From Chloroflexota bacterium (lineage in GTDB: Bacteria; Chloroflexota; Anaerolineae; UBA4142): a DNA stretch of 42,926 bases. Made by a program: the position numbers and the translations under genes. Every line of letters starts with the position of its first letter. Within the stretch, counting starts at the first letter, position 1. The notes below the pieces were generated by a model. It was not told the DNA's origin, did no database searches, and saw only the letters and a program-made list of their open reading frames with translations. Positions 6,588 through 39,301 of the stretch are shown one piece after another. The DNA is taken from positions 5,863 to 48,788 of the forward strand of contig JAMDCU010000094.1 in the NCBI GenBank assembly GCA_023489485.1, read 5' to 3'.

Positions 6588-6612
6588 TTACACAATTCAA
6601 TGTGTAATTGTG
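6588..6612. promoter_or_regulatory. Operator-like nested inverted repeats
   Basis: TTACACA (6588-6594) and TGTGTAA (6601-6607) form a perfect inverted repeat with a six-base spacer. A second, overlapping one is CACAATT (6591-6597) with AATTGTG (6606-6612). They would fall in the first ~30 transcribed bases. GntR-family regulators typically bind TGT/ACA-type palindromes, so this is a good candidate site for the divergent GntR protein. Binding is inferred. Confidence 0.45.
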
Positions 6613-6697
6613 TGACAAGATTCACGTTCAGTGGAACCTCTGCTTGCCAAACGACAAGTGCCGTGTCTGGAAATTGCGTCTGCCGACGGAGGCTGCG

Positions 6698-9523
6698 TTG
6701 CAGGATCAGGAACTTGACCAACTGCTGCAAAGGGAGGATGAGCGATATTTTTCCTCGATCGACCTGATTGCTGCGCACAACGCTCCGTCCCCTTCAGCCC
6801 GGAGCAACGCACATTGGGGCGTGGCCCAGTTCCGGTCCACAGAAGGCTTGGCAGGGCGCCGGCCTTATGCTGGAACAGAGAGCTTTGATGCCATCGAACA
6901 ACTCGCCGCCTGCCGGGGCAGTGAGTTGTTCCGGGCCGAGCATTGTAACGTCCAGCCGGTTTCCGGTACGAATGCCAACCTTGCTGTCTACCAGGCGCTC
7001 CTCAACCCCGGAGACAAGATTCTTTCCATGAGTCTTGAGTCTGGAGGACACCTCTCACACGGACACCCTCTCCACCTTGTTCGCCGGCTGTACGAAATCT
7101 CCCACTATTCCGTAGACCCCGAGACTTGCCTCATCGATTATGATCGACTCGCCGAGATAGCGCTGAAGGTCAAACCGCGCCTTATCATCACGGGGTATTC
7201 TTCTTACCCACGCGCGATCGACCTGGCTCGTTTTGCCCAGATCGGAGAGATGGTCGGGGCGCGCGTCATGGCGGATATCTCTCATATCGCCGGGATCGTG
7301 GCCGCTCGCCTGCATGATAACCCTGTCCACCATGGGATTATCGTCGCCTCCTCTGTCGAAAAGACACTCCGAGGGACCCGGGGCGGATTCATACTTTGCG
7401 GTAAGGATCTGGCACAGCAAATCGATCGAGGGGTTTTTCCAGGACTACAGGGGTCTATTGGATTGTCTCAGTTGGTTGCTACCGCGCACCTCTTTTGCGA
7501 GGCGTCTAGTAGCGAGTTTCGCGAATATCAATGTCAGGTTCTCAAGCACGCCCGCGCTCTGGCAGAAATCCTCTCTCGCCATGGGATTCCCCTGGTCGGC
7601 GGAGGCACGGATACGCACATGGTGCTTGTCAATGTCGGCGCCATTGGTTTGAGCGGAAAAGAGGCTGAGGAACGGCTCGCCCGGATCGGCATTCTCACTA
7701 ACCGTAATGTCATCCCCTTTGATCCCAAGCCTCCTTTCCAGGCAAGCGGGTTGCGCATCGGCACATCCGCGATCACCGGACGCGGCTATACGGACGCGGA
7801 AGTGAACCAAGTCGGCGAATTGGTGGCCGAGGCTCTCGTCACGCCTCGCTGGTCCGCGGCGCTCGAATCCGCCCTGTGCTCGCGCGTCGCCGGTCTGGTA
7901 GCGATCCAACGCGACCGCGATAATCTCCAAGATCTGCGCCGCGCGCGATCCCATTCTTTGCGGCTGGCGTCGGGCAGCGAGCTACAGAGATGCGGGACGG
8001 TGGGCGAGATATTGGTTCGAAATGCACGGTTCTTGCCGAACAAGATCGGTATCGTCTGCGGTGAAACCCGTGCGAGTTTCCGGGAAATGAATCTCCGCGT
8101 GAACGCGCTGGCCCACGGCTTGCTTTCGCTGGGCGTGCGCCAAGGCGACCGAGTTGGCATTCTTGCGCACAACTGCCACCGCTTTCTGGAATCCTACTTT
8201 GCCATTGCCAAGACGGGCGGCATCGTCGTGCCATTGAATAATCTGCTCTCGGTTGAGGAACTGGCCGCTCAGGTGAACGATTGTCTGGCCAAGATTGTGA
8301 TCGTGGGTGACCATCAACTCGAGCCGGCGCAAGCCGTACGATCCAGGTGCCCGGGGCTTGAAACACTGATCTTTTGGGGAGAGGGTCAACCCAGCGGCGT
8401 GATCGACTACGAAAGCATGCTCGCAGGCCAGCCCACAGGCGAGCCGCACGTATCTGTTTCTCCCAATGACCGCTATGCGATTCTCTATACGAGCGGGAGC
8501 ACCGGCCGCCCCAAGGGCGCGGTCATCACCCATCGCGCCCATACGATCAACGCCCTCTCTATGATCATCGAAGGCGACGTGCGCGAACAGGATGTGACTC
8601 TCAGCGTCCTGCCCATGTTTGCCGCTATCCCCGAGCAAATGATACCGCACCTGACCATGGGGGCGCGGGTCGTCGCGGTGCCCCGCTATGAGATCAAGAC
8701 AATGCTGGAGACCATTGCGCGGGAACGTGTGACTCACACCGATGTGGTACCTACGATATTGGGAGATATCCTGGCGTATCCGCGTCTGGACGAATGCGAT
8801 ACGAGTTCACTGCGGCACGTTCTGTACGGCTCGGCTCCAACGCCTCCGGCCGTAATCAAACGCTGGTGCGAACGGCTGCCCCACGCCGGTCTGTTCGAGG
8901 GTTATGGGACGCTCGAGTCGGGACCGCTCGCCGCCTGTCTCAAGCCTCAGGACCAATTGGTCAAGCTGGGCAGCGCCGGAAAACCGGTACTGCAAGCGGA
9001 GATGGCAATAGTAGACGAGCAAGACCGCCAGGTGCCGGCGGGCGAGGTGGGCGAAGTCGTCTGGCGGAGCGAATCGCTGTTCGAAGAATACTATGGACAG
9101 CCTGAGGAAACCGCGCGTGCACTCCGCAGCGGCTGGTTTCACAGCGGCGACATTGGAACACTGGATGCCGAAGGGTATCTCTACATTCTCGACCGGATAA
9201 AGGATCTCATCAAAACAGGTGGGCTGGGTGTCTCTTCGGTCGAAGTGGAACGCGTCCTATACGAGCATCCTGCGGTCTTGGAGGCGGCGGTGATCGGTAT
9301 TCCGCACGAACGTTGGGGGGAAGCGATCCACGCGGTCGTCGTCAAGTCGCAGGACTCGCTCACCGCGGATGAGCTGATCCAGTTCTGTGGATCACGGCTG
9401 ACTCGCTTCAAGATACCCAAGTCTGTCGAATTTGTCGATTGTCTTCCCAAAACCTCGATCGGCAAAATATCCAAGCGGGCGCTACGCTCCAAGTATTGGG
9501 CAGGCCGGGAGAAACAGGTCTAG
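6698..9523 (+). CDS. Fusion: SHMT-like PLP enzyme plus acyl-CoA synthetase
   Basis: The start TTG 6698 is chosen because GGAGG (6688-6692) precedes it by five bases and it gives the usual ~25 residues before the first SHMT motif; TTG 6608 is the upstream limit. Residues about 1-385 follow serine hydroxymethyltransferase: VQPVSGTNAN, SGGHLSHGHP, DISHIAGIVAA, the Schiff-base Lys (~K222) in VEKTLRGTRGG, and the carboxylate-binding Arg in GLRIGTSAIT. Several normally conserved residues differ: LIASEN reads LIAAHN, KYAEGYPGKRYY reads FRSTEGLAGRRPY (losing the catalytic Tyr of E. coli GlyA Y55), and THKTL reads VEKTL. Residues about 435-935 are an ANL-family adenylating enzyme: YTSGSTGRPKG, YGTLESGP, HSGDIGTLDAEG, DRIKDLIKTGG and the C-terminal Lys motif PKTSIGKISKRALR. 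It probably couples aldol/retro-aldol or condensation chemistry at an amino acid to CoA thioester formation. Substrate unknown. First gene of the operon. Confidence 0.85.
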   Translation: MQDQELDQLLQREDERYFSSIDLIAAHNAPSPSARSNAHWGVAQFRSTEGLAGRRPYAGTESFDAIEQLAACRGSELFRAEHCNVQPVSGTNANLAVYQALLNPGDKILSMSLESGGHLSHGHPLHLVRRLYEISHYSVDPETCLIDYDRLAEIALKVKPRLIITGYSSYPRAIDLARFAQIGEMVGARVMADISHIAGIVAARLHDNPVHHGIIVASSVEKTLRGTRGGFILCGKDLAQQIDRGVFPGLQGSIGLSQLVATAHLFCEASSSEFREYQCQVLKHARALAEILSRHGIPLVGGGTDTHMVLVNVGAIGLSGKEAEERLARIGILTNRNVIPFDPKPPFQASGLRIGTSAITGRGYTDAEVNQVGELVAEALVTPRWSAALESALCSRVAGLVAIQRDRDNLQDLRRARSHSLRLASGSELQRCGTVGEILVRNARFLPNKIGIVCGETRASFREMNLRVNALAHGLLSLGVRQGDRVGILAHNCHRFLESYFAIAKTGGIVVPLNNLLSVEELAAQVNDCLAKIVIVGDHQLEPAQAVRSRCPGLETLIFWGEGQPSGVIDYESMLAGQPTGEPHVSVSPNDRYAILYTSGSTGRPKGAVITHRAHTINALSMIIEGDVREQDVTLSVLPMFAAIPEQMIPHLTMGARVVAVPRYEIKTMLETIARERVTHTDVVPTILGDILAYPRLDECDTSSLRHVLYGSAPTPPAVIKRWCERLPHAGLFEGYGTLESGPLAACLKPQDQLVKLGSAGKPVLQAEMAIVDEQDRQVPAGEVGEVVWRSESLFEEYYGQPEETARALRSGWFHSGDIGTLDAEGYLYILDRIKDLIKTGGLGVSSVEVERVLYEHPAVLEAAVIGIPHERWGEAIHAVVVKSQDSLTADELIQFCGSRLTRFKIPKSVEFVDCLPKTSIGKISKRALRSKYWAGREKQV

Positions 9524-9621: not shown

Positions 9622-10674
9622 GTGAACAAAAGGCTCTGGATCGCAATGGCGATTGTCCTGCTCGTGGCTATGGTCGCTGCATGCACCGCGGCGCCTACGC
9701 CCGCCCCTACTCAGGCCCCCCCGACGGCCGCCCCCCAATCGTCCAACAGTTCAAGCGCGCCGGCGAGCTCGTCGACTACCGGCAAGACCTTTCAGATCGG
9801 TATCACCGTTATCGTCGAGCACCCCGTGCTGACCGCAATGCAAAAGGGGTTTCAAGACCGGATGAAAGAACTCGGCTATGTCGAGGGCAAGAACGTCGTG
9901 TATGAAGTGAAGAATGCCCAAGGTGATCTTACGAACGCGACAACTATAGCCAAGCAGTTCGTGGCCTCCAAGAAAGACATGATCGTTGGCCTCGGCACTC
10001 CGTCCATCGTGGCGGCGGCCAAAGAGACCAAAGATATTCCAATCGTATTTGCCGGAATGACCGACCCGGTGGGAAGCGGTGTGGTTAAGACCATGGACCA
10101 GCCGGGCGGAAATGTCACTGGAACCACCGACTGGGTGCCGCCCGAAGATCAACTCGCCGTCCTAAAAGAGGCCTACCCCAATGCCAAGAATATCGGAATC
10201 ATTTTCAACCCCTCTGAGGCAAATAGCAAGAGTTGGTTGGATACGGCAACTCCCGCGGCACAAAAAGTTGGTTTGACTTTCGTCACAGTTCCCGTCGCGG
10301 CCACCGGCGATCTACAGGCGGCGGCGCAATCTCTGGTAGGGCGTGTCGACTTGATCCTTGCCGGACCCGACAATACGGTGTCGGGCGGCATGGAAATCAT
10401 TGCCAAAGTCGCGATATCCAACAAACTGCCAGTGCTGAGCATCGCCCAGGAGAATGCTGCCCAGGGTGCCCTGATGGGTATGGGTGTCGACTATTACAAG
10501 TTGGGACAGATGGCGGCCGACCAGGCTGACAAAATCTTCAAAGGAGAGTCGCCAAGCACCATCGCGGTCCAGAAGCTTCCGCAGTTGGTTATTACCGTCA
10601 ACACAAAGACAGCTGCCGCTATCGGAGCCAAGCTGCCCGATTCGATCATGAACCGCGCCACCAAGACCGAATAA
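9622..10674 (+). CDS. TrpX-type ABC transporter substrate-binding lipoprotein
   Basis: The start is GTG 9622, preceded by AAGGAGGAGAG; the frame is open further upstream but that would spoil the signal peptide. The N-terminus is a lipoprotein signal (NKRLWIAMAIVLLVAMVAAC, lipobox VAAC with Cys21), followed by a Pro/Thr/Ala/Ser linker of about 35 residues. The mature part matches the ABC_sub_bind (TrpX) family: FQIGITVIVEHPVL, LGYVEGKNVVYEVKNAQGD, IPIVFAGMTDPVGSGVV and GVDYYKLGQMAADQA. These proteins present amino-acid-like ligands to LivH-like permeases. The 350-residue length is normal. It is followed by a strong hairpin and the permease gene. A paralogue lies at 39302-40369. Confidence 0.88.
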   Translation: MNKRLWIAMAIVLLVAMVAACTAAPTPAPTQAPPTAAPQSSNSSSAPASSSTTGKTFQIGITVIVEHPVLTAMQKGFQDRMKELGYVEGKNVVYEVKNAQGDLTNATTIAKQFVASKKDMIVGLGTPSIVAAAKETKDIPIVFAGMTDPVGSGVVKTMDQPGGNVTGTTDWVPPEDQLAVLKEAYPNAKNIGIIFNPSEANSKSWLDTATPAAQKVGLTFVTVPVAATGDLQAAAQSLVGRVDLILAGPDNTVSGGMEIIAKVAISNKLPVLSIAQENAAQGALMGMGVDYYKLGQMAADQADKIFKGESPSTIAVQKLPQLVITVNTKTAAAIGAKLPDSIMNRATKTE

Positions 10675-10744: not shown

Positions 10745-11735
10745 ATGGACTTGGTCACAATTGCAGTACAGATCTTGCTGATCGGAATGGAGACAGGCCT
10801 GCCTCTCGTCTTTATGTTCCTGGGGGTTTATCTCATATTCCGTCTGCTGGATGATTTCGACCTAAGCGTCCAGGGTACCTTTCCCATGGGCGGTGCCACC
10901 GTGGCTGTGCTTCTCGCCCGCGGGATGAATCCGCTTGCGGCAACGGCGTTCGCGGTCTTGGCCGGGTGCGTGGCGGGCCTGGTGACGGGCCTCATTCACA
11001 CTCGTTTGCATGTCACGCTGCTGTTGGCCGGTATCATTTCGATGATTGGTCTGTACACGATCAACCTGCATATCATGGGCGGCCCGAACGTGCCACTCTT
11101 GAATGTCCCTACGATCTTGGGATTCGTTCGCCGACGACTATGGCGGACTGGAGCACGGCATCGTGGTGAGCGCGGCAATGCTCGTCCTGCTCGGCCTTTT
11201 CGTCGGCGGGCTGATTTATCTGCTGAACACCGAGCTGGGTTTGGCCATCCGGGCCACCGGCGGCAATCCCGCTATGGCGCGCAGCATGGGTGTCAATACG
11301 GCAGGAATTACCATCCTGTGCGTCGTGCTGGCCAACGGGCTTATTGCGCTTTCCGGCGCTCTGGTTGCCCAGGACCAGGGCTATGCAGACATATCGATGG
11401 GGACAGGTTCGATCGTCGCGGGAATTGCGTCCATTCTGCTGGGTGAGTTGATTGTACGCAAACCGGGTCGAGTCAAGCGTGGAGTTGTCGCCGTGGTGAT
11501 CGGTACCCTGGCCTACCGCCTCCTCTTTACGTTGGCGCTCCGGCTCGGGCTGGAGCCTTTCGACCTGCAACTATTCACGGCGGTCACGCTCTTGTTCGCG
11601 CTGGTTATTCCGAGGGGAGTGCAGCAGGTCCAGTCGCAGCAAAAGCAGTGGGGGCGGCTGTACCAGCTATTGGGCAAGCGGCCAGTGCGAATGCCTCAGG
11701 AGGGATTGAGCCATGTTGCAGCTGGAAGACGTTAG
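10745..11735 (+). pseudogene. ABC permease of the TrpX-type importer, split by a frameshift
   Basis: The gene starts at ATG 10745 behind AGGAAGG. The first frame gives membrane segments (LPLVFMFLGVYLIFRLLDDF, TFPMGGATVAVLL) through NVPTILG. At about 11118-11128 homology jumps to the next frame (FADDYGG, then LLNTELGLAIRATGGNPAMA, VLANGLIALSGALVAQDQGY, GVVAVVIGTLAYRLLFTLAL). The paralogue at 38277-39239 is continuous across the same point, so one extra base (or loss of two) splits the gene. This is BPD_transp_2, the LivH/TrpY class, with about eight to ten membrane helices. The 3' end overlaps the ATPase start at 11713. It could be a sequencing or assembly error or a real inactivation; I see no programmed slippery site. 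Confidence 0.75.
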
Positions 11736-13701
11736 GGTCGTCTTTAGCAAAGGGACGCCGACCGAAACCGTTGCCTTGAATAATGTGAGTCTCGACGTGA
11801 AAAAGGGCGACTATATTACGATCATCGGCAGCAACGGCGCCGGCAAGACGACTATGATCGAGACAATTTCCGGGACCGTCTCGGCGGAGAGCGGCCGGAT
11901 TACGCTCATGGGAAAAGACATTGGCAAGCTAGCCGACCACGAACGCGCCCGCTTTATCGGTCGCGTCTTTCAGAACCCTCTGGCCGGGACCACTCCGCTC
12001 ATGTCCATTGAGGAAAATCTCGCTCTCGCTGCCCTGCGCGGGCAGACCCGTACGATACGTTTGGGGGTCACGACCAAACGTCGGAACGAATTTCGAGATG
12101 CGCTCGCCCAACTCGACATTGGACTGGAGAATCGTCTTTCGGACTCGGTCTCCTTGCTTTCCGGCGGCCAACGCCAGTGTTTGACGCTCGTGATGGCGAC
12201 CTTGCGCAAGCCGGACCTACTCCTGTTGGACGAGCACACCGCGGCGCTCGATCCCAAGAACCAGGAACTGGTCATGCAGATCACGGACCGGATTATTGCC
12301 GAGCACAACCTCACGGCGCTGATGGTGACGCACAACATGTCCCAGGCTCTCCAACACGGGAACCGGACGATCATGATGCACCAGGGAAACATCGTCGCGT
12401 GCTTTGGGCAGGAGGAGCGGCAAGCCCTCACGCCGGAACAACTCGTGGCCAAGTTTCACCAGGTCCCCGGCGCGGAGTTGGAAGACCGCACCCTATTATC
12501 CATTCCTGCAGAGCCCTGCGTTCAAGTCCAGACACCCGACTCGAATGGCCGTGCGCAGTTCATGAACGACGGCGCAAGCGCGCTTGAAACGGGTGCGTAT
12601 ATTGCCGAGCACCGATTGGAATTCATCCGCGACTGGAAATCGGACCATCCGGATAAACCTTTGGTCGGCTGGGTCTATACGAACGATCCCGAAGAGATCG
12701 TCCATGCGGCTGGCTTGACGCCGCTCCGGATTTTTGGCGACAGCGCGCGTACACAGGCGCCGGACAAGTATCTGCCGACCGGAGTCTGCGCGTTCGCTCG
12801 CAGCTATCTGGATATGGCACTGCAGGGTCGCTATGATTTTCTCGACGGGTTGGTCATGGCCCAGTCCTGCGATACCAATTTCAAGGTCTTTGACATCTAT
12901 CGCCGCCAGGTCGTGCGTCCTCCCTTCAAGTATTTTGTCCATATGCCGCATGTCATATCGTCCGAATCGTTCGAATTTTGGATGCGGGAACTGGACGAGT
13001 TTAGCCGCTCCCTAGCTCAGGCCTTTGACGTCGCTATTACCGACGAGCGACTCTATTCCTCGATCGAGGTGTATAACCGTCATCGCGCGCTGTTGAAAGA
13101 GTTGTACGGTCTGCGCAAGCCCGATCCCCCACTCGTCTCCGGTGTCGAGGCGTTTCAACTGGCCCTGGCCAGCGTCACCTTGCCCAAGGAAGAGGCCAAC
13201 ACGCTCCTGGAAAAAGCTATCCAGGAGATCAAAACACGCGTGAACCTGATCCCGCGCCGGCCCCGGTTGCTGCTGGCCGGGTCGCTCGTGGACAATCCCG
13301 CGATTGTGCGGACGGTCGAGGACGCGGGCGCGAACGTTGTGGCGGATACTCTCTGCACTGGCAGCCGGTACTTTTGGGATACCATTGAGCAGAATGGTAA
13401 TCCCCTACGCGCGATCGGTCGCTATCACCTGGAACGCCCCATCAATCCATGGCAGCATCCGACCGAGTCAGGCAATGTGGCCTTTATGCAAAAGATGTGT
13501 GAAGAATTCCAGGTGGATGGCGTGGTGTTTCAGACCATGCGATTCTGCGACCCGTATGGGTTTGATGCCCCTCTGATCATGGAAAGCCTGGAAAAGCGAG
13601 GAATTCCCGCTCTGCATCTTCACCACAACTATAACGAGGTGGCATGGGCCTCTCTGCGCAACCGCCTGGAGGCTTTTGTGGAAATGGTTTCGGGGGTCTA
13701 G
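11713..13701 (+). CDS. Fusion: ABC importer ATPase plus 2-hydroxyacyl-CoA dehydratase HgdB-like subunit
   Basis: Residues 1-~263 are a complete ABC ATPase: Walker A GSNGAGKT (39-46), signature LLSGGQRQ (148-155), Walker B LLLLDEH (169-175) and the H-loop in MVTHN. This matches the stand-alone paralogue at 37474-38274, which stops where the fusion continues. After a ~20-residue linker, residues ~284-662 form a full HgdB/BcrB/FldC-type subunit: WVYTNDPEEIVHAAGLTPLR, and the three Cys expected to hold the [4Fe-4S] cluster in PTGVCAF (C359), AQSCDTN (C386) and RFCDPYG (C612). An internal ATG at 12562 (M284) marks a likely ancestral start but lacks a ribosome-binding site. The frame is open without any stop. 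The dehydratase part works with the next gene product on a 2-hydroxyacyl-CoA. Confidence 0.85.
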   Translation: MLQLEDVRVVFSKGTPTETVALNNVSLDVKKGDYITIIGSNGAGKTTMIETISGTVSAESGRITLMGKDIGKLADHERARFIGRVFQNPLAGTTPLMSIEENLALAALRGQTRTIRLGVTTKRRNEFRDALAQLDIGLENRLSDSVSLLSGGQRQCLTLVMATLRKPDLLLLDEHTAALDPKNQELVMQITDRIIAEHNLTALMVTHNMSQALQHGNRTIMMHQGNIVACFGQEERQALTPEQLVAKFHQVPGAELEDRTLLSIPAEPCVQVQTPDSNGRAQFMNDGASALETGAYIAEHRLEFIRDWKSDHPDKPLVGWVYTNDPEEIVHAAGLTPLRIFGDSARTQAPDKYLPTGVCAFARSYLDMALQGRYDFLDGLVMAQSCDTNFKVFDIYRRQVVRPPFKYFVHMPHVISSESFEFWMRELDEFSRSLAQAFDVAITDERLYSSIEVYNRHRALLKELYGLRKPDPPLVSGVEAFQLALASVTLPKEEANTLLEKAIQEIKTRVNLIPRRPRLLLAGSLVDNPAIVRTVEDAGANVVADTLCTGSRYFWDTIEQNGNPLRAIGRYHLERPINPWQHPTESGNVAFMQKMCEEFQVDGVVFQTMRFCDPYGFDAPLIMESLEKRGIPALHLHHNYNEVAWASLRNRLEAFVEMVSGV

Positions 13702-13705
13702 CCGC

Positions 13706-14968
13706 ATGACCACGACTTCGCGTTCCCAGAAGAGCATGATTGCGGCCCGAGAAGTCTACGGGCTGGTCAAATCCTACTATCAAGAGATGCGCCAGGCGCG
13801 CGAGCAGGGAGTACCGGTCGTCTGGTATTCCGGACAGGCGCCGGTCGAACTGCTAGAAGCCGCCGGTGTCTTTCCATACCTGATTGAGCAGTACTGTCCC
13901 GTTGCCGCTGCCAAACAACTGGCGCCTCTGTATCTGGATGCGGCTGAGCGGCGCGGCTACTCGGAAGAATTGTGTTCCTACGCCACCGTGCCCATCGGCG
14001 TCGCACTTGAGATCGACAATCCGCGCTTTCATCATGCCAATGGCGGGCCCGTCAAGCCGGACTTTTTGGTCACCTCACATTTTCTCTGCGACCAGCGGGT
14101 CAAATACATCAAAGCCATCGGCCGTATCTTGGATCGGCCCGTGGGTGTGATCGACTGCGTGCATAACATCGATATCGAGGAACCTTCTGACATCAAGCAA
14201 TATCACCTCGACTATTACGTCACCCAGTATCAGGAGTTGATTCGGTTCGTCGAGCAGCAGACCGGGCGACCCTACGATATGAATCGCCTTGGCGAGGTGG
14301 TCGAAGAATTCAACCACGGCATTCGTCTCTTTATGGCGGGACTGGAATACCAGCAGAGCGTCCCGGCTCCCATGTCCGCCTCGGACTTTTTCGCCATCAT
14401 GTTCCCGCTCTTTGTGCGCCCGGGGCGACGAGAGACAACCGAGTTCTGCGGGCGGTTTCACGACGAAATGAAGGCACGGTCCGAGCAGGGCATAGGAGCG
14501 GTCACGCCGGAGAAATATCGCCTGATGTTTGACGGCCTCCCCATGTGGTTCAACCTAGGACTGCTCAACTATTTTGAGGAGGCGGGGGCTTCGTTCGCGG
14601 CTTTTACCATGTACATCGATCGTTTCATCGAGCTCGACCCCGAACGCCCCCTGGAGAGCATGGCCCGCCGCGAACTCTTGAATCATATCAATTCACATGC
14701 ACTCCGGCGTATCGAGTATGTCGGCGAGATTGCGCGCAAATTCAAACTTGATGGGATATTCATGCCAGGCTTTGAATCTTGCAAGCCGATCTATGTGCAT
14801 CAGGAGGAACTCAAGCGCGCGATGCGCGGGCGGCTTGACCTTCCTACCCTGTCTTTTGAAACCGATTTTCTCGACGAGAGATATTACTCGGATGCACTCG
14901 CCAAGAGCCGTATCGATGCTTTTCTCGAAATCCTTGAAGAGAGGAGAGCGGTAGCATGTATGCCCTAG
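13706..14968 (+). CDS. 2-hydroxyacyl-CoA dehydratase, HgdA/FldB-like subunit
   Basis: The start is ATG 13706, four bases after the fusion stop. The 420-residue protein matches the second subunit of 2-hydroxyacyl-CoA dehydratases / benzoyl-CoA-reductase-like enzymes. Visible motifs: WYSGQAPVELLEAAGVFPYL near the N-terminus, candidate cluster cysteines in SEELCSYA (C90), HFLCDQRVKYIK (C128) and FESCKPIYV (C359). The family removes water from (R)-2-hydroxyacyl-CoA through a ketyl radical after one-electron ATP-driven activation, and is oxygen-sensitive. It sits between the HgdB-like fusion and the activator gene, the usual order of partners. The exact substrate cannot be told from sequence. Confidence 0.88.
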   Translation: MTTTSRSQKSMIAAREVYGLVKSYYQEMRQAREQGVPVVWYSGQAPVELLEAAGVFPYLIEQYCPVAAAKQLAPLYLDAAERRGYSEELCSYATVPIGVALEIDNPRFHHANGGPVKPDFLVTSHFLCDQRVKYIKAIGRILDRPVGVIDCVHNIDIEEPSDIKQYHLDYYVTQYQELIRFVEQQTGRPYDMNRLGEVVEEFNHGIRLFMAGLEYQQSVPAPMSASDFFAIMFPLFVRPGRRETTEFCGRFHDEMKARSEQGIGAVTPEKYRLMFDGLPMWFNLGLLNYFEEAGASFAAFTMYIDRFIELDPERPLESMARRELLNHINSHALRRIEYVGEIARKFKLDGIFMPGFESCKPIYVHQEELKRAMRGRLDLPTLSFETDFLDERYYSDALAKSRIDAFLEILEERRAVACMP

Positions 14969-15789
14969 GCTTGGATATCGGTTCTGCGTACGGCAAGGCC
15001 GTCCTCCTCCAGGGGGAGCAGATCGTGGCCAGCCGCGTGCTGCGCACCGATGGGAACATGGAGCACACGGCGCTGGGACTGCTGGATCAGATTCTGGCGG
15101 CAGCTCACATTCCTTTTGGCGAGATCACGTTTGCCGCGAGTACGGGTATCGGGCGCCACCTCGTCCCGTTTACTCAGAAGACCAATACCGAGATCACCTG
15201 CCAGGCACGCGGGATTGCCTGGATGTGTCCAACGGTACGAAGCATCATCGACATTGGCGGGCAGGACTGTAAGGGTATCAAACTCGACGAAGCAGGCCGG
15301 ACCATTGATTTTGTCATGAATGACAAGTGCGCTGCTGGGACGGGTCGGTTCCTCGAGGTGATGGCGACGGTATTGGGAATCAGCCTCGAAAACCTTGGGG
15401 CGACGTCGATCCAGGCAACTCAGTCAGTCAAGATTGCCAGCACCTGCACCGTTTTCGGCGAGTCCGAGGTTGTATCTCACCTGGCGCACGGCGCCCCCAA
15501 GGAGCAGATCGTGCGCGGGCTGCATGAGGCGATAGCCCGCCGTATTGCCGGAATGGTTGGCAAGACTCCCTGCGAGCCGGACTTGGTCATTACGGGCGGA
15601 GTCGCCAAGAACGTCGGAGCCGTACGTGCCCTCGAGCAAGTGATGGGCATGCAGGCTTTTGTCCCGCCCGAACCGCAGATTACGGCGGCGCTCGGATGTG
15701 CATTGATGGCTGAGCGCACCCAAAGCCATCCCCGACCGGATTGGAGCCACTCAGCAACGCTCGACGTCCGTACACGCGAATTGAGCTGA
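14956..15789 (+). CDS. 2-hydroxyacyl-CoA dehydratase activator ATPase (HgdC/BadF family)
   Basis: This 277-residue protein overlaps the preceding gene by 13 bases, implying translational coupling. It is an ASKHA-fold ATPase with phosphate-1 motif GLDIGSAYGKAVLL, phosphate-2 SIIDIGGQDCKG and adenosine motif VITGGVAKNVGAV. The two Cys that bridge one [4Fe-4S] cluster between the two subunits of the homodimer are present in NDKCAAGTG (C125) and STCTVFGESE (C164). It transfers one electron to the dehydratase at the cost of ATP. Length and motifs are typical, so the dehydratase system looks complete. Confidence 0.9.
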   Translation: MYALGLDIGSAYGKAVLLQGEQIVASRVLRTDGNMEHTALGLLDQILAAAHIPFGEITFAASTGIGRHLVPFTQKTNTEITCQARGIAWMCPTVRSIIDIGGQDCKGIKLDEAGRTIDFVMNDKCAAGTGRFLEVMATVLGISLENLGATSIQATQSVKIASTCTVFGESEVVSHLAHGAPKEQIVRGLHEAIARRIAGMVGKTPCEPDLVITGGVAKNVGAVRALEQVMGMQAFVPPEPQITAALGCALMAERTQSHPRPDWSHSATLDVRTRELS

Positions 15790-17083: not shown

Positions 17084-18361
17084 ATGGATCAGACGACAGC
17101 CGACCACATCGAACTTTATTTTCGCAAATATCCCGAAGTGCCGCCGGAGGCGATTATCAAAGAAGATATCCTGCGGCTAGGCGTCAAGTTCACGCCGGCA
17201 GCGCTCGCGCGAGCGCAGGGATTCAAACTCAAGACCTATTTCCTCTTTACGTATGATCACGCAGACAACCAAGGCGTGCGGGCGCCCCAGGACCTGTATC
17301 TCTCGGGTGGTCCGTATGGTCTGCGCCACACGATCGTCCGCGTGGTGGTTTCCGACCGATCACCCTACTGTGTGGATGTCCAGGACGACAAACTGGTCAT
17401 CACGTATCAGGGACAATTCCTGGCCAACATCGAATACCCGCGTCTCGCGCCCTACCACTACAAGACGCTACCGGATGGGACGCGCTATGGAGACTATATT
17501 CCACTGGTCTGTGATCACCTCGGCTTTCTCACGACGTATCGGACCTGCCAGTACTGGGGCAAGGGACTGAACTGCAGGTTCTGCGACATCAATGAGAACG
17601 TACGGCAAATCCGCAAGCATTTTGGCAAAGAAGCCATGCCCAAGGCCTACAAAGACATCGACAGCGTCGTGACCGTCATTGAAGCTATGTTTGCTGAGCA
17701 GGACCCTGACCTGCGGGTTCAGGAAATTCTGATTACGGCAGGAACGATTTTGGGTGAGCTGAACGGCAAGAACGATACCGAGTTCAACCTTGAATACGTT
17801 GAGGCCATCCGAGACCGGATCGGATACCGCATCCCTATCGTCCTCATCATCGAAGCGAAAAAAGAGAGCGAACTCAAGCGGATCAAGAGCGCGGGGGTTA
17901 CGTCGCTCAACTTTAACCTCGAAGTCTGGGACAAGAATATATTTGCCGCCCTCTGCCCGGGCAAGCAGCAATACATCGGTTGGGACGAGTGGGTCCGGCG
18001 TTTGATCAAGGCGGTCGACGTCTTTGGCGAATGCAACGCCAGCCCCAATTTTGTCGCGGGCGTAGAGATGGCGCAGCCTTACGGCTTCAAAGAAGTGGAT
18101 CAGGCCATCAAATCGACCACCGAGGGCTTTGAGTTTTTGATGAAGCACGGCGTCGTGCCGCATCTGGATACCTGGACTCCGGAGCCAGGGACGATGTTCG
18201 AAGGACACCCGCCGATCTCACTGGACTATTTAATTCAAGTCGACAGGGCGTGGTATGAAACCTGGAAAAAGTACGACTATCTTCCCGTGACAGGTTATGG
18301 ACCGGTAGGACCGGGGCGAGCCTATTATGCCAACACGGGCAGCGTCGACATGGGGTACTGA
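17084..18361 (+). CDS. Radical SAM protein with an unusual CX8CX2C cluster motif
   Basis: The start ATG 17084 is preceded by GGATGGAGG. The 425-residue protein has an ~150-residue N-terminal extension, then a cluster-binding motif with C155, C164 and C167 (TCQYWGKGLNCRFCDI). Spacing is CX8CX2C instead of the standard CX3CX2C. The barrel follows: ILITAGTILGE, IPIVLIIEAKKESELKRIKS, AGVTSLNFNLEVWD, SPNFVAGVEMAQPYGF and LDTWTPEPGT. The general architecture resembles BioB/HydE-like radical SAM enzymes that handle small substrates. There is no SPASM or B12-binding domain within the protein, but a corrinoid protein lies later in the operon. I do not recognise the subfamily or reaction. Confidence 0.75.
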   Translation: MDQTTADHIELYFRKYPEVPPEAIIKEDILRLGVKFTPAALARAQGFKLKTYFLFTYDHADNQGVRAPQDLYLSGGPYGLRHTIVRVVVSDRSPYCVDVQDDKLVITYQGQFLANIEYPRLAPYHYKTLPDGTRYGDYIPLVCDHLGFLTTYRTCQYWGKGLNCRFCDINENVRQIRKHFGKEAMPKAYKDIDSVVTVIEAMFAEQDPDLRVQEILITAGTILGELNGKNDTEFNLEYVEAIRDRIGYRIPIVLIIEAKKESELKRIKSAGVTSLNFNLEVWDKNIFAALCPGKQQYIGWDEWVRRLIKAVDVFGECNASPNFVAGVEMAQPYGFKEVDQAIKSTTEGFEFLMKHGVVPHLDTWTPEPGTMFEGHPPISLDYLIQVDRAWYETWKKYDYLPVTGYGPVGPGRAYYANTGSVDMGY

Positions 18362-18402
18362 GCGGAATAGAACAACGCAATCCCAACACATGGAGGAGTT
18401 GA

Positions 18403-19527
18403 ATGGTTCCTGTGCTCCAGTGCCAGTGGAACGATAGGGAAACCGGCGCCAAAGCCTATTTCGTGATCGATACGCTCAAGTCGGAATTGTGCGCGGGTGG
18501 GATTCGCATGCGCAAGGGGGCAACGGCGGACGAAGCCCAGCGGCTGGCGCGCACAATGACCTACAAACTTGCTGCAATCGGCATCCCGTTCGGCGGGGCT
18601 AAAGCGGCTATCGACTATGATCCCACGCTGCCCGACAGTTATGGGGTGCTTGAACGATTCCTCGCCGTGCACCGTCCCTGGATCAGAGAGTTCTGGGTCA
18701 CGAATGAAGACCTCGGGACCAAAGAAGAAGATATAGTCGCAATTCTCAAGAAGATAGGCATCCCTTCCCCATTTCAGGCGGGGATAAGTAAATCCCAAGA
18801 CCCGGAGCGCACGGCGGCTAACCTGCGCCAGGCGGTCGAGCTGCAGGTCGATGGGCTCCGCATGGTCGATACTGTCACAGGGTACGGTGTTGCTCAGGCC
18901 ACTCTGGAGGCACTGCTCTTCATGGGACGCCGTCCCGCCGAATGTTCGGTCGTCATTCAGGGGTTTGGAAGTGTCGGCGGGAGCACGGCGCGGTATCTAT
19001 GGAGAGAAGGATGCCGCATTGCAGGCATCGCGGATGCCGAAGGCGTCATTGCCTGTCCGGATGGATTGGACATCGATGGGTTGCTGAGCCGACGCAATCG
19101 GTGGGGTGTTATCTCCCGTTCGGGCTTGCCGCGTGAGTATCAGTGCCTGCCGCGCGAAGAATGGGTGCACCTGAATGCGGACATCTTGATCCCCGCGGCG
19201 GTTGCCGACGCGATTCACGCGGAGAATTGCGACGGGATCCGGGCCAAGCTTATCGTCGAAGGGGCGAACATCCCGACCACGCTTGAGGCGGAGAAACGAC
19301 TCTCCGCGCGCGGGGTGGTCATTGTGCCTGACTTTGTGGCCAATGCCGGAGCGATTGGCTATACCCCGTCGATCATCCTGGGACGCATCCAGCCCCGGGT
19401 GGATGACGCGCTTGGTTTTCTCAAAACGCAAATCCGCAGCACTACGCGCAAGGTTCTCGAAAAGAGCCGGACGGAGGGCCTTACGCCACGTGAGGCGGCA
19501 ATTCAACTCGTCAAGAGCGCCGGTTAG
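18403..19527 (+). CDS. Glu/Leu/Phe/Val-type amino acid dehydrogenase
   Basis: ATG 18403 follows a GGAGGAG site. The 374-residue protein has the N-terminal dimerisation/catalytic domain (GGIRMRKGATADEAQRLART, MTYKLAAIGIPFGGAKAAI with the two catalytic Lys, and NEDLGTKEED with the expected Asp) and a C-terminal Rossmann domain (VIQGFGSVGGSTARYL, GIADAEG, VEGANIPTT, VPDFVANAGAIG). It should interconvert an L-amino acid and its 2-oxo acid with NAD(P). It is somewhat shorter than classical glutamate dehydrogenases, and nothing seen fixes the side-chain specificity. In this operon it may make the 2-oxo acid on the way to a 2-hydroxyacyl-CoA, or reassimilate ammonia. Confidence 0.87.
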   Translation: MVPVLQCQWNDRETGAKAYFVIDTLKSELCAGGIRMRKGATADEAQRLARTMTYKLAAIGIPFGGAKAAIDYDPTLPDSYGVLERFLAVHRPWIREFWVTNEDLGTKEEDIVAILKKIGIPSPFQAGISKSQDPERTAANLRQAVELQVDGLRMVDTVTGYGVAQATLEALLFMGRRPAECSVVIQGFGSVGGSTARYLWREGCRIAGIADAEGVIACPDGLDIDGLLSRRNRWGVISRSGLPREYQCLPREEWVHLNADILIPAAVADAIHAENCDGIRAKLIVEGANIPTTLEAEKRLSARGVVIVPDFVANAGAIGYTPSIILGRIQPRVDDALGFLKTQIRSTTRKVLEKSRTEGLTPREAAIQLVKSAG

Positions 19528-19536
19528 GGAGGAACA

Positions 19537-20502
19537 ATGTCGGTCATCACGCTGGAGAGGATGCGCGAGGTTCAGGGCCAACTACGCGGGGTGATCCACC
19601 CGACGCCCCTCCAATCTTCGAGGACCTTCTCCGAGATGACGGGAGTGCAAGTATATCTCAAACCAGAGTGCTTGCAGAAAGCAGGCAGCTTTAAGCTGCG
19701 CGGAGCGTACAGCCTCGTGAGTGGGCTGCCGCCGGAAGAGCGAGCGCGAGGGCTCGTGACCTACTCGGCCGGCAATTGGGCGCAGGGGGTAGCGCTCACC
19801 GCCTCGATTATGGGAATTGGAGCAACGGTGGTGATGCCGAGTTCGCCTAACCCGGCCAAGGTAGCGGCCGCGCGCGGCTATGGGGCGACGGTGGTTCTCT
19901 ACGGCACGAACTCGCTCGAATTATGCGACAGGGCCCAACAACTGCGTCAGGAACACAGCTATGCCTTTATTGACCCGCTCGGGTCGCCGGACCTGGTCGC
20001 GGGAGATGCCTCGATCGGGCTAGAAATCGTAGATGAGCTGCCGGATGTCGACGCCATCGTCGTGCCGGTGGGCGGCGGTTCCATGCTGGCTGGCATCGCC
20101 CTCGCCGCCAAAGCGCTCAATCCCCGCATCCGTTTGTTCGGCGTTCAGCCCGAAGGGTCACGGGCGATGAAATTGTCTCTCGAAGCGGGACACGTCGTCG
20201 AAAGCGACTCGGTGACAGTGGCCGAGGGATTGGGAGTCAAACGTCCCGGACAATACAGTTTCGATGTGATCAAAGAGAACGTCGACGATGTGGTCCTGGT
20301 TTCCGATGACGAGATCGTGCGTGCAATGCTGTTGCTCCTGGAACGTGCCAAACTTGTCGTCGAACCTTCAGGTGCGGCCAGCCTGGCCGCACTCTTATCC
20401 GGAAAATTGAATTTGGGAGGCAAAAAGGTGTGCGTTGTGCTGAGCGGCGGAAATATCGATTTACCCCGGCTCGCGAAATTCCTTTCGGCGGCTTGCATGT
20501 GA
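19537..20502 (+). CDS. Threonine-dehydratase-like PLP enzyme (fold type II)
   Basis: ATG 19537 is ten bases after the previous stop and has GGGAGGA in front. The 321-residue protein is a single-domain serine/threonine ammonia-lyase homologue without an ACT regulatory domain. The PLP Lys is K53 in KAGSFKLRGAYSL; the phosphate loop is PVGGGSMLAGIA and the C-terminal block is LSGGNIDL. The otherwise conserved SAGNHAQG block reads SAGNWAQG, with Trp at position 81 in place of His next to the cofactor ring. This suggests altered substrate or reaction (another beta-hydroxy or beta-substituted amino acid), which is inference. It belongs to the same tight operon. Confidence 0.85.
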   Translation: MSVITLERMREVQGQLRGVIHPTPLQSSRTFSEMTGVQVYLKPECLQKAGSFKLRGAYSLVSGLPPEERARGLVTYSAGNWAQGVALTASIMGIGATVVMPSSPNPAKVAAARGYGATVVLYGTNSLELCDRAQQLRQEHSYAFIDPLGSPDLVAGDASIGLEIVDELPDVDAIVVPVGGGSMLAGIALAAKALNPRIRLFGVQPEGSRAMKLSLEAGHVVESDSVTVAEGLGVKRPGQYSFDVIKENVDDVVLVSDDEIVRAMLLLLERAKLVVEPSGAASLAALLSGKLNLGGKKVCVVLSGGNIDLPRLAKFLSAACM

Positions 20503-20558
20503 ATTTAGAGCCGAAATGCGCTCCGCAAGCGGAAAATCCAATTGACCAAGGAGGACCG

Positions 20559-21410
20559 GTGCAGGTCGAAAAGATTGCGGTAATTGGCGCCGGGACGATG
20601 GGGAATGGCATCGCACAAGTCGCCGCGATGGCAGGCTACCAGGTACAAATGCGCGACGTGGAACAGGCTCTTATCGATAGAGCCCTGGGGACCATACAAA
20701 ATAGCTTGAATCGTCTGGTCAAAAGCGGCAAGTTAACGGCTGCCCAGGCAGAGGCCGCGTGCGGCCGAATTCAACCCACTACGGATCTCGCCCAGGCGGT
20801 TGGCGATGCAGATGTCGTGATCGAAGCGGTTCCGGAAAAGCTGGAGTTGAAAAAGCAGGTATTTGCAGGAATTGATGCACTTTGCCCCGCCCATGCGATC
20901 TTGGCCACCAACACGTCCCAATTGAGCATCACCGCGCTCGCGCACGCGACGCGGCGTCCCGAGAGCTTCATCGGTATGCACTGGTTCTCGCCGCCGGTAT
21001 TGATGCGACTGATCGAGATCGTGCGCGGGTTTGATACGTCCGATACTACGGTTCAGATCATTCAGAACATTTCCGCACAGATGGGTAAGGAAACGGTAGT
21101 GTGCAAGGACTCGCAGGGGTTTATCACGACGCGCGTTTTCCAGGCTTTTCTCAATGAATGCTTCCGAGTCTGTGACGAAGGTATAGCCTCGATGGAGGAC
21201 ATTGACAAGGCGATCAAGCTCGGGCTGAATCACCCTATGGGTCCGTTTGAATTGACCGACTATGCCGGTGCCGACGTCGCGAACAGCGCGAATGAGGGAT
21301 TGACCGAGGTCTTTGGCGATCGCTTTCGCTCGCCCCAATGTCTGCGACGTTTGATCGCCTCCGGGAACTTGGGTCGCAAGACCGGCCGAGGATTCTACCG
21401 CTACAAATAG
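20559..21410 (+). CDS. 3-hydroxyacyl-CoA (3-hydroxybutyryl-CoA) dehydrogenase
   Basis: The start GTG 20559 is chosen because AAGGAGGA precedes it and the Rossmann fold begins immediately (KIAVIGAGTMGNGIAQVAAM). The 283-residue length is typical. The catalytic His lies in FIGMHWFSPP and the paired Glu in LMRLIEIVRG; the usual Asn of HFFNP is replaced by Ser. The C-terminal helical domain contains VVCKDSQGFITTRVFQAFLN and NHPMGPFELTDYAGAD. It oxidises a 3-hydroxyacyl-CoA with NAD, feeding the thiolase at 15802-17016. The gene lies 56 bases after the threonine-dehydratase-like gene. Confidence 0.9.
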   Translation: MQVEKIAVIGAGTMGNGIAQVAAMAGYQVQMRDVEQALIDRALGTIQNSLNRLVKSGKLTAAQAEAACGRIQPTTDLAQAVGDADVVIEAVPEKLELKKQVFAGIDALCPAHAILATNTSQLSITALAHATRRPESFIGMHWFSPPVLMRLIEIVRGFDTSDTTVQIIQNISAQMGKETVVCKDSQGFITTRVFQAFLNECFRVCDEGIASMEDIDKAIKLGLNHPMGPFELTDYAGADVANSANEGLTEVFGDRFRSPQCLRRLIASGNLGRKTGRGFYRYK

Positions 21411-22099
21411 TCCCGGAAATCCAAATTCTGCAAGTCCTCGCGAGAGGCCCAGGGAGTGGAGCCCTGAGTGGTTCTCTGTCTAGTGCGATTGCAGACCTGG
21501 AAGAAGGAATGGCCCTGAATCTGGTCAAGGAGCAATTGGATCATGGAGTAGATCCACTGGCCATTCTCGCTAGCTGCCGGGAGGGGATGGCGGCGGTGGG
21601 CCGACGCTGTGAAGCGGGCGAATACTTTGTATCTGAGTTGATCATGGCGGGCGAGTTGCTGAAGGAAGCATCTCGCCTGCTCAATCCTCATATCAAGACC
21701 GATGGGGACCGCGGCCGGGGTAAGGTCGTGATTGGCACGGTCAAAGGTGATATTCACGATATCGGCAAGGATATTGTGGTGAACTTGCTCAACGCAACTG
21801 GCTATGAAGTCATTGACCTCGGGGTTGATGTGCCGGTGGACCGATTTGTGGAAGCTGTCCGAGTGAGCGGGACGGCGGTGGTTGGTCTGTCGTGCCTGCT
21901 AACTGTATCCTTCGATGCCATGAGGGCAACCGTTGACGAGCTGAAAAACGCGGGGCTACGGTCCAAGGTCAAGGTGATGATCGGCGGTGGCCCTATCGCC
22001 GAGCAAGTGCGGCAGCACGTGGGAGCTGATGCCTTCGGCGCGGATGCGCAGGCCGCCGTGAGTTGCTGCAACCGATGGATGCAGGAAGCCACCACATGA
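21338..22099 (+). CDS. Corrinoid (B12-binding) protein of a methyltransferase system
   Basis: ATG 21338, which overlaps the dehydrogenase gene by 73 bases, is the only ATG/GTG/TTG before the N-terminal helical domain; ATG 21509 would cut that domain, so the true start is uncertain. The helical cap (LVKEQLDHGVDPLAILASCR, CEAGEYFVSELIMAGELLKE) is followed by the Rossmann B12 domain with the base-off motif VKGDIHDIGKDIVVNLL (DxHxxG), GLSCLLTVSFDAM and the GG block MIGGGPIAEQ. This is the MtaC/MtbC/MtmC-like architecture. It carries the methyl group between a substrate-specific methyltransferase and an acceptor. The adjacent truncated UroD-type gene was its partner. Confidence 0.85.
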   Translation: MSATFDRLRELGSQDRPRILPLQIVPEIQILQVLARGPGSGALSGSLSSAIADLEEGMALNLVKEQLDHGVDPLAILASCREGMAAVGRRCEAGEYFVSELIMAGELLKEASRLLNPHIKTDGDRGRGKVVIGTVKGDIHDIGKDIVVNLLNATGYEVIDLGVDVPVDRFVEAVRVSGTAVVGLSCLLTVSFDAMRATVDELKNAGLRSKVKVMIGGGPIAEQVRQHVGADAFGADAQAAVSCCNRWMQEATT

Positions 22100-22606
22100 G
22101 CCATCAAGCCGTGTATCAAGAGAGATTCACGCGCATTCAAAAGGCTATGCACGTCGAGGCTGTGGATCGGGTTCCGATCATCTATATGGGATCAGCCTTC
22201 GTGCCGCGCTATATGGGCATGTCGATGGCGCAGTTCTGTTCGGACAGAGAGGCGGCTTTCCGGGTCAAGCTCACGGCGATGGACAAGCTAGCCGGGTTTG
22301 ACGGGGCCAACCAGGCGGGCTCCTCAGGTGGAATCAGCCTCGTTCCCTTGTGGCTTTCGCGGGTGGAGATCCCGGGACGCGAATTGCCTGCTGATAGTTT
22401 GTGGCAAGTTCGTGAAGCGCAAGTCATGTTGGAAGCCGAGTATGATACTATTCTCCACAAAGGTTGGTCTCGCTTTCTGGCCGACTATATGCCGAGGGTC
22501 GTCGATGTTGCCCAGTTGGATGCTTTCGTGCTTTGGAGTTCGGCAAACCGCCAACGTATCTTGGAAACCTATCGGGAGCATGGAACGCGCAACTTCATGA
22601 GAAAAT
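22096..22606 (+). pseudogene. UroD/MtaA-type corrinoid methyltransferase, cut by an insertion sequence
   Basis: The gene begins at ATG 22096 and overlaps the corrinoid-protein stop as ATGA. About 168 residues remain, with the N-terminal pattern of uroporphyrinogen-decarboxylase-like methyltransferases (YQERFTRIQKAMHVEAVDRV, then IYMGSAFVPRYMGMSMAQF). At ARNFM the frame runs into the end of an insertion sequence near 22602 and becomes repeat-derived. Roughly half of the usual ~340 residues, including the zinc-ligand region, is missing, and I do not find the rest after the insertions. The methyl-transfer branch is therefore probably inactive unless another copy exists. Confidence 0.75.
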
Positions 22607-23967
22607 GTTACCGAAACGAGATCGTGACGTCACGAGAGAATGTTACCGAAACGGAATTCGTGACGTCACACCGGAATGTTACCCCTGCCGGGTCGGCTTG
22701 AGCTCCGCTAGCCGATGATCGATTTCCTGCTTCAGCTTGACGACATCGAGTTGGGCATGCCCGCGGCGCAGCTTGGCTTTGACTGGTGAACTCACGTCGG
22801 GGGAGTCCACCACCCGCTGATAGGGCGTCTTGGGCGCATCGTAGATTTTCTTCACGCGACTGCCGTGATGTTCCGTCCGGAGCAGTTTCGTCAGCGGTAG
22901 GAAGTGATTGAAATACAAGCGATAGACGCGGTAGAGCGCATTGAGTTGGGCCACTTGCTTGGGCGTGTCGTAACGCCCGTACCCCACCAACCGTCGCACC
23001 GCGGACCAATTCTTTTCTTCGACGAAGGGCTGATCGTTCTTGTGCCCCACCCGGCCCCGGGTGAAGGTGAGGTGTTCGTCCACACAATAGCGATAGAGTT
23101 CGTCGTTAATGAACTCGCTGCCATTATCCGAATCCAAGCCCAACAGCGGAAAGGGCAGGCACACCCGTTCCTGTTTCAAGGTGGCAAAGACATGGACTTG
23201 CGCTTTATTGGGCGTGGCCCCGAGTTCGGTCCAGCTCGTCGCCACATCGGTGAGGGTCAGGGTGCAGGCAAAATCCCCTTGATTGGAGCCCCCCTCGTGC
23301 TGCACCAGGTCGATTTCGCCAAAACCGGGGCGTTGGTCATCCCAATCGGCGAAGGTCCGCACCGCAATTTGCTGTTTGAGCAAGGTGCCCGGTTTGGTGC
23401 CCCCGCGCAGCCGGCGGCCGGGACGGCGGGCGGCCCGGCGCCAGCGATCCATGGTGGAAGGACTGACCTGTAAGAGATGTTGATAGGTGAGGCGACTGAC
23501 TTTCAGATGACCCTGGCGGCGCAGGTTCGGCAGTTCGGTGTCCATGGCCACGCGGAGACGTTTCGAGCCGATGTCATCAAAGAGGGCCACGAGCCAGAAC
23601 ACGGCCTGTTGATCGGACTCCGTATAGAGGGCGCGGCGGTGGCGATGGAGCGGCTGCTTGGGATCGCGCCACTGGCGTTTCCCGGCGAGCAAGGCGCTGG
23701 CATGTTTGCGATGATAGCCAGCGGTGGCCACAAACTCGTCCAGCATGAGCGCGCGCTCTCTCTTGGAAGCTTGGGCATAACGTTTGCGTAGTTGCGCCAG
23801 GTACTTGGGGCTGGGCTTGGTGTGACTCACGAGAGGACTCCTGTTTTGAGGAGTCATTATCGCACAGCTCCGCGTGGGGCTGGTAACATTTTCTCGTGAC
23901 GCCACGTTTCGCTCTCAGTAACATCCTCCCATTACGCCACGTTTTGCGTTCGGTAACATTTTTAATG
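22602..23967. mobile_element. Insertion sequence A with triple repeats at each end
   Basis: The outer ends are inverted copies of AAAATGTTACCGAA (22602-22615 and about 23950-23963). Each end holds three copies of AATGTTACC at 35-36 base spacing: 22604, 22639 and 22675 on the left; complements at 23882, 23917 and 23952 on the right. Two palindromes GTGACGTCAC lie between the left copies (22624 and 22660). ATGAG occurs directly outside both ends and is a possible target duplication. The element contains one transposase gene on the minus strand and interrupts the UroD-type gene. Confidence 0.7.
22679..23857 (-). CDS. DDE integrase-core transposase of insertion sequence A
   Basis: The preferred start is ATG 23857 (MTPQNRSPLV); an ATG at 23905 lies inside the terminal repeat region. 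The protein has an N-terminal helix-turn-helix region (KRYAQASKRERALMLDEF, then TAGYHRKHASALLAGK), and a retroviral-integrase-like core with the expected acidic residues in GFGEIDLVQHEG, GLDSDNGSEFIN and NDQPFVEEKN. The C-terminal part is basic (KAKLRRGHAQLDVVKLKQEI). It resembles unclassified integrase-core transposases rather than typical IS3. The gene appears intact, so the element could still be mobile. Confidence 0.8.
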   Translation of the reverse strand: MTPQNRSPLVSHTKPSPKYLAQLRKRYAQASKRERALMLDEFVATAGYHRKHASALLAGKRQWRDPKQPLHRHRRALYTESDQQAVFWLVALFDDIGSKRLRVAMDTELPNLRRQGHLKVSRLTYQHLLQVSPSTMDRWRRAARRPGRRLRGGTKPGTLLKQQIAVRTFADWDDQRPGFGEIDLVQHEGGSNQGDFACTLTLTDVATSWTELGATPNKAQVHVFATLKQERVCLPFPLLGLDSDNGSEFINDELYRYCVDEHLTFTRGRVGHKNDQPFVEEKNWSAVRRLVGYGRYDTPKQVAQLNALYRVYRLYFNHFLPLTKLLRTEHHGSRVKKIYDAPKTPYQRVVDSPDVSSPVKAKLRRGHAQLDVVKLKQEIDHRLAELKPTRQG

Positions 23968-24044
23968 AGGCGGCTCCCTAACTTGTCACCAATGGGCTTC
24001 CATGATATACTGAAGCCAACAGCGAGCCTGTAGTTTGTCTTTAC

Positions 24045-36438: not shown

Positions 36439-37431
36439 TCAGAATTCTACCCAGGTGCCCGCCCCATTGTGAGCCGCGTTCGCGTACACGTGGGCCGCTG
36501 CTGCGAGATCCTCGACAGCTAGGCCAAGCGCCTTGAACAGTGTAATTTGGTCTGGGGATGTTCGTCCCTCTTTTGTACCGATCAGGATCTCCCCGATTTC
36601 TCCTTGAATGTGATCCGGGCCGATGGCTCCATCTTGGGCGGCGAACAAGTAGTCTCCGGACTCATTCAATGTGGACTCGCGCCGATCGCCAAAGAAACGT
36701 GAAGCGGCCACTGTGGCCGTATCAATTTCACGCGCGTTCCGGAAACTCGCACCGACCGCATTGATGTGGGTGCCGGCCGAGACCCACTCCCGTTTCAGCA
36801 CGGGCTCGGAGGATGACGTCACGGTGACAATCAAGTCAGCGCCTCGAACAGCAGATTGGACGCTATCCACATATTCAACGGGAAAGGAAAATCGAGCCCC
36901 CATTTCTTTGGCGAATGCCTTTGCTCGCTCCACGTTATGATCTGCGACGCGCACGCGTTTGAGCGGGCGGACACATGCCATGGCCGCCAGGTGAGCACGT
37001 CCTTGTGTGCCGGCACCGACGATAGCGAGGTCACTGGCATCAGGCCGCGCCAAGAGGCGAGTCGCCACCGCAGAAACAGCTCCGGTCCGGATTGAGGTGA
37101 TAGCCGACGCGTTCACGACCGCGAGTGGTTCGCCTGTCTCGCCGCTGAAGAGGAGCACACATCCCTGGTGCATATCTTTGCCCATCGCTGAGTTACCTGG
37201 AAAGACGCAGACCGCTTTCACTCCATAGGCGGCAGCCCCGTCCTCGCCGGACCGGTAAGCCGGCATCAGCCCCAGCATGCCCGCGGCGGCTGGCGGATTG
37301 ACTATCATCCGAAGGGGCAGAAACATTTCACCCTTGGCGAGTGCTGCGAGCGCCTCTGCCATGACCTCGACGCACTCGTTCATCGGCAAGAGTTGCTCAA
37401 CCTCGCTATGACTCAAGACGAGAATCTTCAT
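36439..37431 (-). CDS. Ornithine cyclodeaminase / mu-crystallin family protein (DauB-like)
   Basis: The start is ATG 37431 (MKILVLSHSEVEQLLPMNEC), preceded by AAAGAGG. The 330-residue protein has the family's N-terminal dimerisation domain (EALAALAKGEMFLPLRM, GVKAVCVFPGNSAMG, VVNASAITSIRTGAVSAVAT) and an NAD(P)-binding Rossmann domain (LAIVGAGTQGRAHLAAM). Members include ornithine cyclodeaminase, alanine dehydrogenases, ketimine reductases and DauB, the NAD(P)H-dependent L-arginine dehydrogenase. In this context, reductive amination of the 2-oxo acid made by the DAO-family enzyme is the most attractive role. The gene is 42 bases downstream of the ABC ATPase and shares its transcript. Confidence 0.87.
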   Translation of the reverse strand: MKILVLSHSEVEQLLPMNECVEVMAEALAALAKGEMFLPLRMIVNPPAAAGMLGLMPAYRSGEDGAAAYGVKAVCVFPGNSAMGKDMHQGCVLLFSGETGEPLAVVNASAITSIRTGAVSAVATRLLARPDASDLAIVGAGTQGRAHLAAMACVRPLKRVRVADHNVERAKAFAKEMGARFSFPVEYVDSVQSAVRGADLIVTVTSSSEPVLKREWVSAGTHINAVGASFRNAREIDTATVAASRFFGDRRESTLNESGDYLFAAQDGAIGPDHIQGEIGEILIGTKEGRTSPDQITLFKALGLAVEDLAAAAHVYANAAHNGAGTWVEF

Positions 37432-37473
37432 TGGATCGGCCTCTTTAAATGCATCCAAGATGTGGAACAAACC

Positions 37474-38274: not shown

Positions 38275-38276
38275 TC

Positions 38277-39239: not shown

Positions 39240-39301
39240 CGCTTTTACCTAGCCCCTGCCCAATCTACCGGTTTTCGAACGCATGCGGCCATGGTTGGGT
39301 G

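Follow-up and report, generated by a model that had tools for sequence, protein, structure and literature searches.

An ABC importer ATPase and a 2-hydroxyacyl-CoA dehydratase beta subunit share one open reading frame in a Chloroflexota genome, plausibly through recent loss of a stop codon

A single stop-free reading frame of 662 amino acids, at positions 11713-13701 of the + strand, encodes an ABC importer ATPase followed by a dehydratase beta subunit. It lies in the window, that is, the whole stretch of 42,926 nucleotides analysed here, which is placed on a 48.8-kb contig of a single genome (3.1 Mb in 179 contigs, 70.7% complete). We favour, with some reserve, the reading that two operon neighbours were fused recently and only in this lineage by loss of the stop codon of the ATPase gene, and that the product is probably translated as one chain. 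No ABC-dehydratase fusion was found described in the literature searched, in agreement with the first-pass annotation, which had named no described case either.

The frame runs from ATG 11713 to TAG 13699-13701. Pfam profiles matched it with ABC_tran (PF00005, E 4e-28) at residues 22-177 and with HGD-D (PF06050, E 3.2e-85) at residues 326-658. The ATPase half (11713-12504, residues 1-264) is complete and TrpZ-like, is 42-54% identical to stand-alone ATPases, and carries the Walker A, signature, Walker B and H-loop motifs as GSNGAGKT, LSGGQ, LLLLDEH and VTHNM. The HgdB/HadC-like half (12562-13701, residues 284-662) is likewise complete as judged by PF06050, by alignment, and by PDB matches to BzdN and HadC. 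Its cysteines C76, C103 and C329 were invariant in an alignment of 10 sequences, and they aligned with cysteines of BzdN (8s02_B) and HadC (3o3m_B). Decoding with a codon model kept one frame across the join. The fused ORF is not a chance frame, since it encodes both domains at full length without a change of frame. The first-pass annotation had reported that no stop separates the two parts, that the N-terminal part contains every ABC ATPase motif, and that the remainder is a complete HgdB-like subunit with three cluster cysteines; all of this was confirmed.

The boundaries of the join were compared with stand-alone proteins. In nearly all of the 28 usable ATPase relatives, homology extended as far as about residue 264 of the fusion, with an LLS-like ending (ends at ~262-268), and three of the 28 had a 20-residue tail. 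The paralogous stand-alone ATPase encoded at 37474-38274 (- strand) ends within a few residues of 264, just where the fused one had been said to run on. Stand-alone HgdB relatives, most of them 366-394 aa in length, have their start close to where M284 aligns; counted from M284, the HgdB half has 379 residues, the same length as a stand-alone HgdB. Between the halves lies a linker of 19 codons, PAEPCVQVQTPDSNGRAQF (12505-12561), which is missing from the ATPase and HgdB relatives and showed no homology when compared with them. Six of its 19 codons are one substitution away from a stop. One change would turn GAG 267 into TAG, and judging by the lengths of the relatives a stop would be expected around codons 263-268. 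By its codon score the linker ranked between the two reference sets (9th percentile for true coding windows, 91st for wrong-frame ones). We regard the linker as probably a former stop codon plus spacer, and two whole genes with their former spacer between them are the best fit to what is expected of a lost stop codon. A lost stop codon after recent fusion was one of two readings put forward by the first-pass annotation, and it is favoured here on the grounds of two complete genes, a linker of spacer length, and no relative with the join.

If this reading is right, the stop codon of the ATPase gene would have been lost in the lineage, joining the adjacent genes for the TrpXYZ-like ATPase and the dehydratase beta subunit, and the former spacer would have become a flexible linker of ~20 residues. 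Translation from the ATPase start, which is preceded by the Shine-Dalgarno sequence AGGAGG, would most likely give one chain of 662 residues. Its C-terminal half would pair with HgdA and be charged by the activase like an ordinary dehydratase, and its N-terminal half would act as an ATPase, the permease that goes with it being frameshifted as sequenced. The fused chain was modelled with AlphaFold, using as input a block alignment of ATPase and HgdB relatives in which the row of the fused protein was repeated. Both domains were predicted at ~90 pLDDT, the linker at 30-41 and residues 252-283 below 50, with a pTM of 0.59. With a linker predicted to be disordered and this pTM, a fixed arrangement of the two domains is not predicted.

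Related genomes, where the first-pass annotation had suggested looking, yielded no second case. A search of ~800 genomes with the 662-aa query returned single-domain matches only and no ABC-HGD-D fusion; the samples, which overlap, comprised 99 relatives, 396 genomes from the class and 400 from the phylum, as well as 10 named relatives and 60 genomes of a neighbouring class. One match, identical in place, score and identity, turned up both in a genome listed under the same phylum (G580) and in a class sample (G801) built around a named Chloroflexi record (L109), which points to phylum Chloroflexota but to another class than that of the sample. Around the 80 nearest HgdB loci, an alignment scan of genome contigs found none fused and none with an ATPase directly upstream, so the ATPase-HgdB gene order itself was absent. 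Among the genomes searched no other had the join, and the ORF is therefore not placed in a conserved ABC-HGD-D fusion family. The nearest HgdB relative was only ~40% identical, in a contig scan that may leave out very near genomes; the comparison thus covered distant relatives, and the absence means that the join is not widespread, not that it is an artefact. In 14 genomes of the family, no open frame holding another HGD-D member exceeded 526 codons, except for a chance frame on contig C89. That frame, of 684 codons, was considered as a further HGD-D fusion of this genome and rejected because its N-terminal part looks out-of-frame over a neighbouring hydrolase-like ORF. An HGD-D gene at L006:1322-3346 lies in an open frame of 674 codons whose N-terminal part is apparently non-coding, an example of the chance long frames of this GC-rich genome.

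Two general artefacts were also rejected. A chimeric contig is unlikely, since GC and tetranucleotide content were alike on both sides of the join and the junction had no repeat within 612 kb of the genome. General reassignment of a stop codon was discarded as well: all three stops end ORFs normally among 376 long ORFs, and the linker contains no stop codon.

The alternative that survives best is an error in the consensus, in which case the ATPase and dehydratase genes would be separate in the organism and a miscalled base or an indel would have removed a stop, or an overlap of the two genes, from the assembly. With six near-stop codons in the linker, a single wrong base could create the join. 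The HgdB ATG also overlaps a TGA of the +1 frame (ATGA, 12562-12565), as coupled genes do, and an indel could therefore produce the join too. We regard such an error as a realistic, though secondary, possibility because the join is present in one assembly only and a neighbouring gene is frameshifted. This gene is the permease at 10745-11735 (+ strand), in which the two halves of PF02653 lie in different frames (10745-11446 and 11103-11735). Alignment with ~30 intact permeases and codon-model decoding placed the frame switch near 11126, ~590 bases upstream of the ATPase start, and both halves are otherwise conserved. The stretch is therefore either error-bearing or decaying. Frame anomalies that are singletons with intact homologues are frequently sequencing errors (PMC3711429), and the position of GAG 267 within the predicted stop region is as this alternative expects.

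Frameshift-like events, however, are rare elsewhere in the genome. Decoding of 612 kb gave 82 direct frame switches, and in only ~7, the permease included, did the upstream frame continue well past the switch, so that apparent frameshifts occur roughly once per 100 kb. Twenty other long ORFs of the genome had either unremarkable architectures or no strong match in Pfam, one glycosyltransferase pair among them. In addition, the first gene of the operon (6608-9523, + strand) is itself a join, of an SHMT-like enzyme (PF00464, residues 32-405) and an acyl-CoA ligase (PF00501/PF13193, residues 471-953), for which no full-length match was found in 301 genomes of the phylum. Its SHMT part is divergent and its TTG start is uncertain. 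The first-pass annotation of the fused ORF had mentioned neither this second join nor the permease frameshift. Two joins in one operon would require two errors, and with this second unshared join two independent base-call errors become less likely. An SHMT gene beside HgdAB in genome G003 was considered as a sister operon and rejected; its SHMT match was much stronger and it is probably the housekeeping GlyA.

It is also conceivable, though unlikely, that the DNA does carry the open frame while translation begins additionally, or for the most part, at M284 and yields a normal HgdB. The 379-residue length from M284 would agree with this. As the first-pass annotation had stated, we found no match to a Shine-Dalgarno sequence at ATG 12562, whereas one precedes most other genes of the operon, among them those for the ATPase, the activase and the thiolase. 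Such a sequence of at least 4 bases was present in 69% of genes and of at least 5 bases in 41% (38% and 11% of internal control codons, respectively; 612 kb). Since 31% of genes lack even a 4-base match, and the HgdA ATG next door lacks one too, its absence at M284 is weak support for a single chain. A start at M284 is further disfavoured by the lack of an in-frame stop just upstream, which leaves no termination for coupled re-initiation.

The other reading of the first-pass annotation, a true fusion that channels substrate from uptake to dehydration, found no support. The importer genes stand in the order binding protein, permease, ATPase in one operon, with PF04392, BPD_transp_2 and the ATPase all present, the permease in frameshifted form. 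The substrate-binding protein (9622-10674, + strand; PF04392, E 1.6e-73) has the Shine-Dalgarno sequence AAGGAGG before its GTG 9622. The importer resembles the TrpXYZ type, whose substrate would be tryptophan or a related amino acid. That importer and dehydratase genes lie in one operon in the same direction, and that the operon contains a second two-enzyme join, would speak for a fusion selected to tether the dehydratase to the importer for substrate hand-over. The join is, however, not conserved in any of the genomes searched, the linker is predicted to be disordered with no fixed geometry, and with its permease frameshifted the importer of this operon cannot be made as sequenced, which undercuts channelling. 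The substrate would also need CoA activation between import and dehydration. As the chemistry of the dehydratase family acts on CoA esters (PMC11574389) and the ligase is a separate protein, direct hand-over is implausible, and one shared operon already accounts for the link between uptake and catabolism. We therefore hold selection for hand-over to be very unlikely. The same slight credence goes to a selected bifunctional protein that would bring an importer motor with a radical dehydratase subunit to the membrane, its ATPase perhaps serving the paralogous permease at 38277-39239. That permease belongs to a second complete PF04392-type transporter (37474-40369), with the ATPase mentioned above and a binding protein at 39302-40369. 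An ornithine-cyclodeaminase-like gene (36439-37470) adjoins this transporter.

Downstream, the operon continues over 17084-22701 with a variant radical SAM protein, a glutamate-dehydrogenase-like ORF, a PLP enzyme, a 3-hydroxyacyl-CoA dehydrogenase and a B12-binding protein. The region 22063-25247 holds a URO-D-like ORF whose match is confined to the first 68 positions of a 346-position profile, and then two transposase/integrase ORFs on the opposite strand. If the operon were decaying, it would be shedding its importer genes, insertion sequences would have truncated its distal end, and the join would be a side effect with no function. The permease frameshift and the short URO-D match followed by transposase genes would fit such decay, but it is highly improbable, as the ATPase and HgdB halves retain their motifs, their GC3 resembles that of adjacent genes, and the remaining operon genes look intact.

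Stop-codon loss between two operon neighbours thus stays the preferred reading. Should the product be made as one chain, no earlier fusion of an ABC ATPase with a dehydratase is known to us, and it would show operon genes caught in the act of merging into a single protein. Had selection favoured it, a membrane importer would be linked directly to a radical enzyme. For now, a join that is unique to one incomplete assembly and lies next to a frameshift calls mainly for caution.

Compared with TrpXYZ-type importers, such as the one described in Streptococcus suis (PMC9382623), the operon has the same binding protein, permease and ATPase, and the stand-alone ATPases compared are ~265 aa long. It differs in that its ATPase is continued by a dehydratase subunit and its permease lacks an intact frame.

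The dehydratase genes form an ordinary set. Downstream of the fused ORF, an HgdA/HadB-like alpha subunit (13706-14968, + strand; PF06050, best PDB match HadB 3o3m_A) begins with an ATG 4 bases past the stop codon, with an alternative TTG start at 13676. It is followed by a 2-hydroxyacyl-CoA dehydratase activase of the HgdC/HadI type (14956-15789, + strand; TIGR00241, 251 bits against a cut-off of 125). The HGD-D fold in two adjacent homologous subunits, the three cysteines of the beta subunit and the linked activase together place the set in the dehydratase family, and (R)-2-hydroxyacyl-CoA dehydration is its putative reaction, judged from sequence.

Double-cubane cluster proteins (PDB 6ENO, 7YYL) share the HGD-D fold, but their sequence matches were weaker, and here the genes form an alpha/beta pair. 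The solved protein closest to the HgdB half in both sequence and fold was BzdN (PDB 8S02; E 4.6e-54, TM 0.94 by target). In contrast to the ATP-dependent benzoyl-CoA reductase BzdN/BzdO, the HgdA found here is closer to HadB. Benzoyl-CoA reductases (BcrABCD/BzdNOPQ) also have two different activase subunits, whereas a single activase ORF lies beside HgdA/HgdB in this operon, and the set is not assigned to them. The (R)-2-hydroxyisocaproyl-CoA dehydratase HadBC/HadI (PDB 3O3M; reviewed in PMC11574389) has the same adjacent genes for alpha and beta subunits, one activase and three aligned beta cysteines. Identity to it is ~24% in structural alignment, and the beta subunit here differs from it in carrying an N-terminal ABC ATPase.
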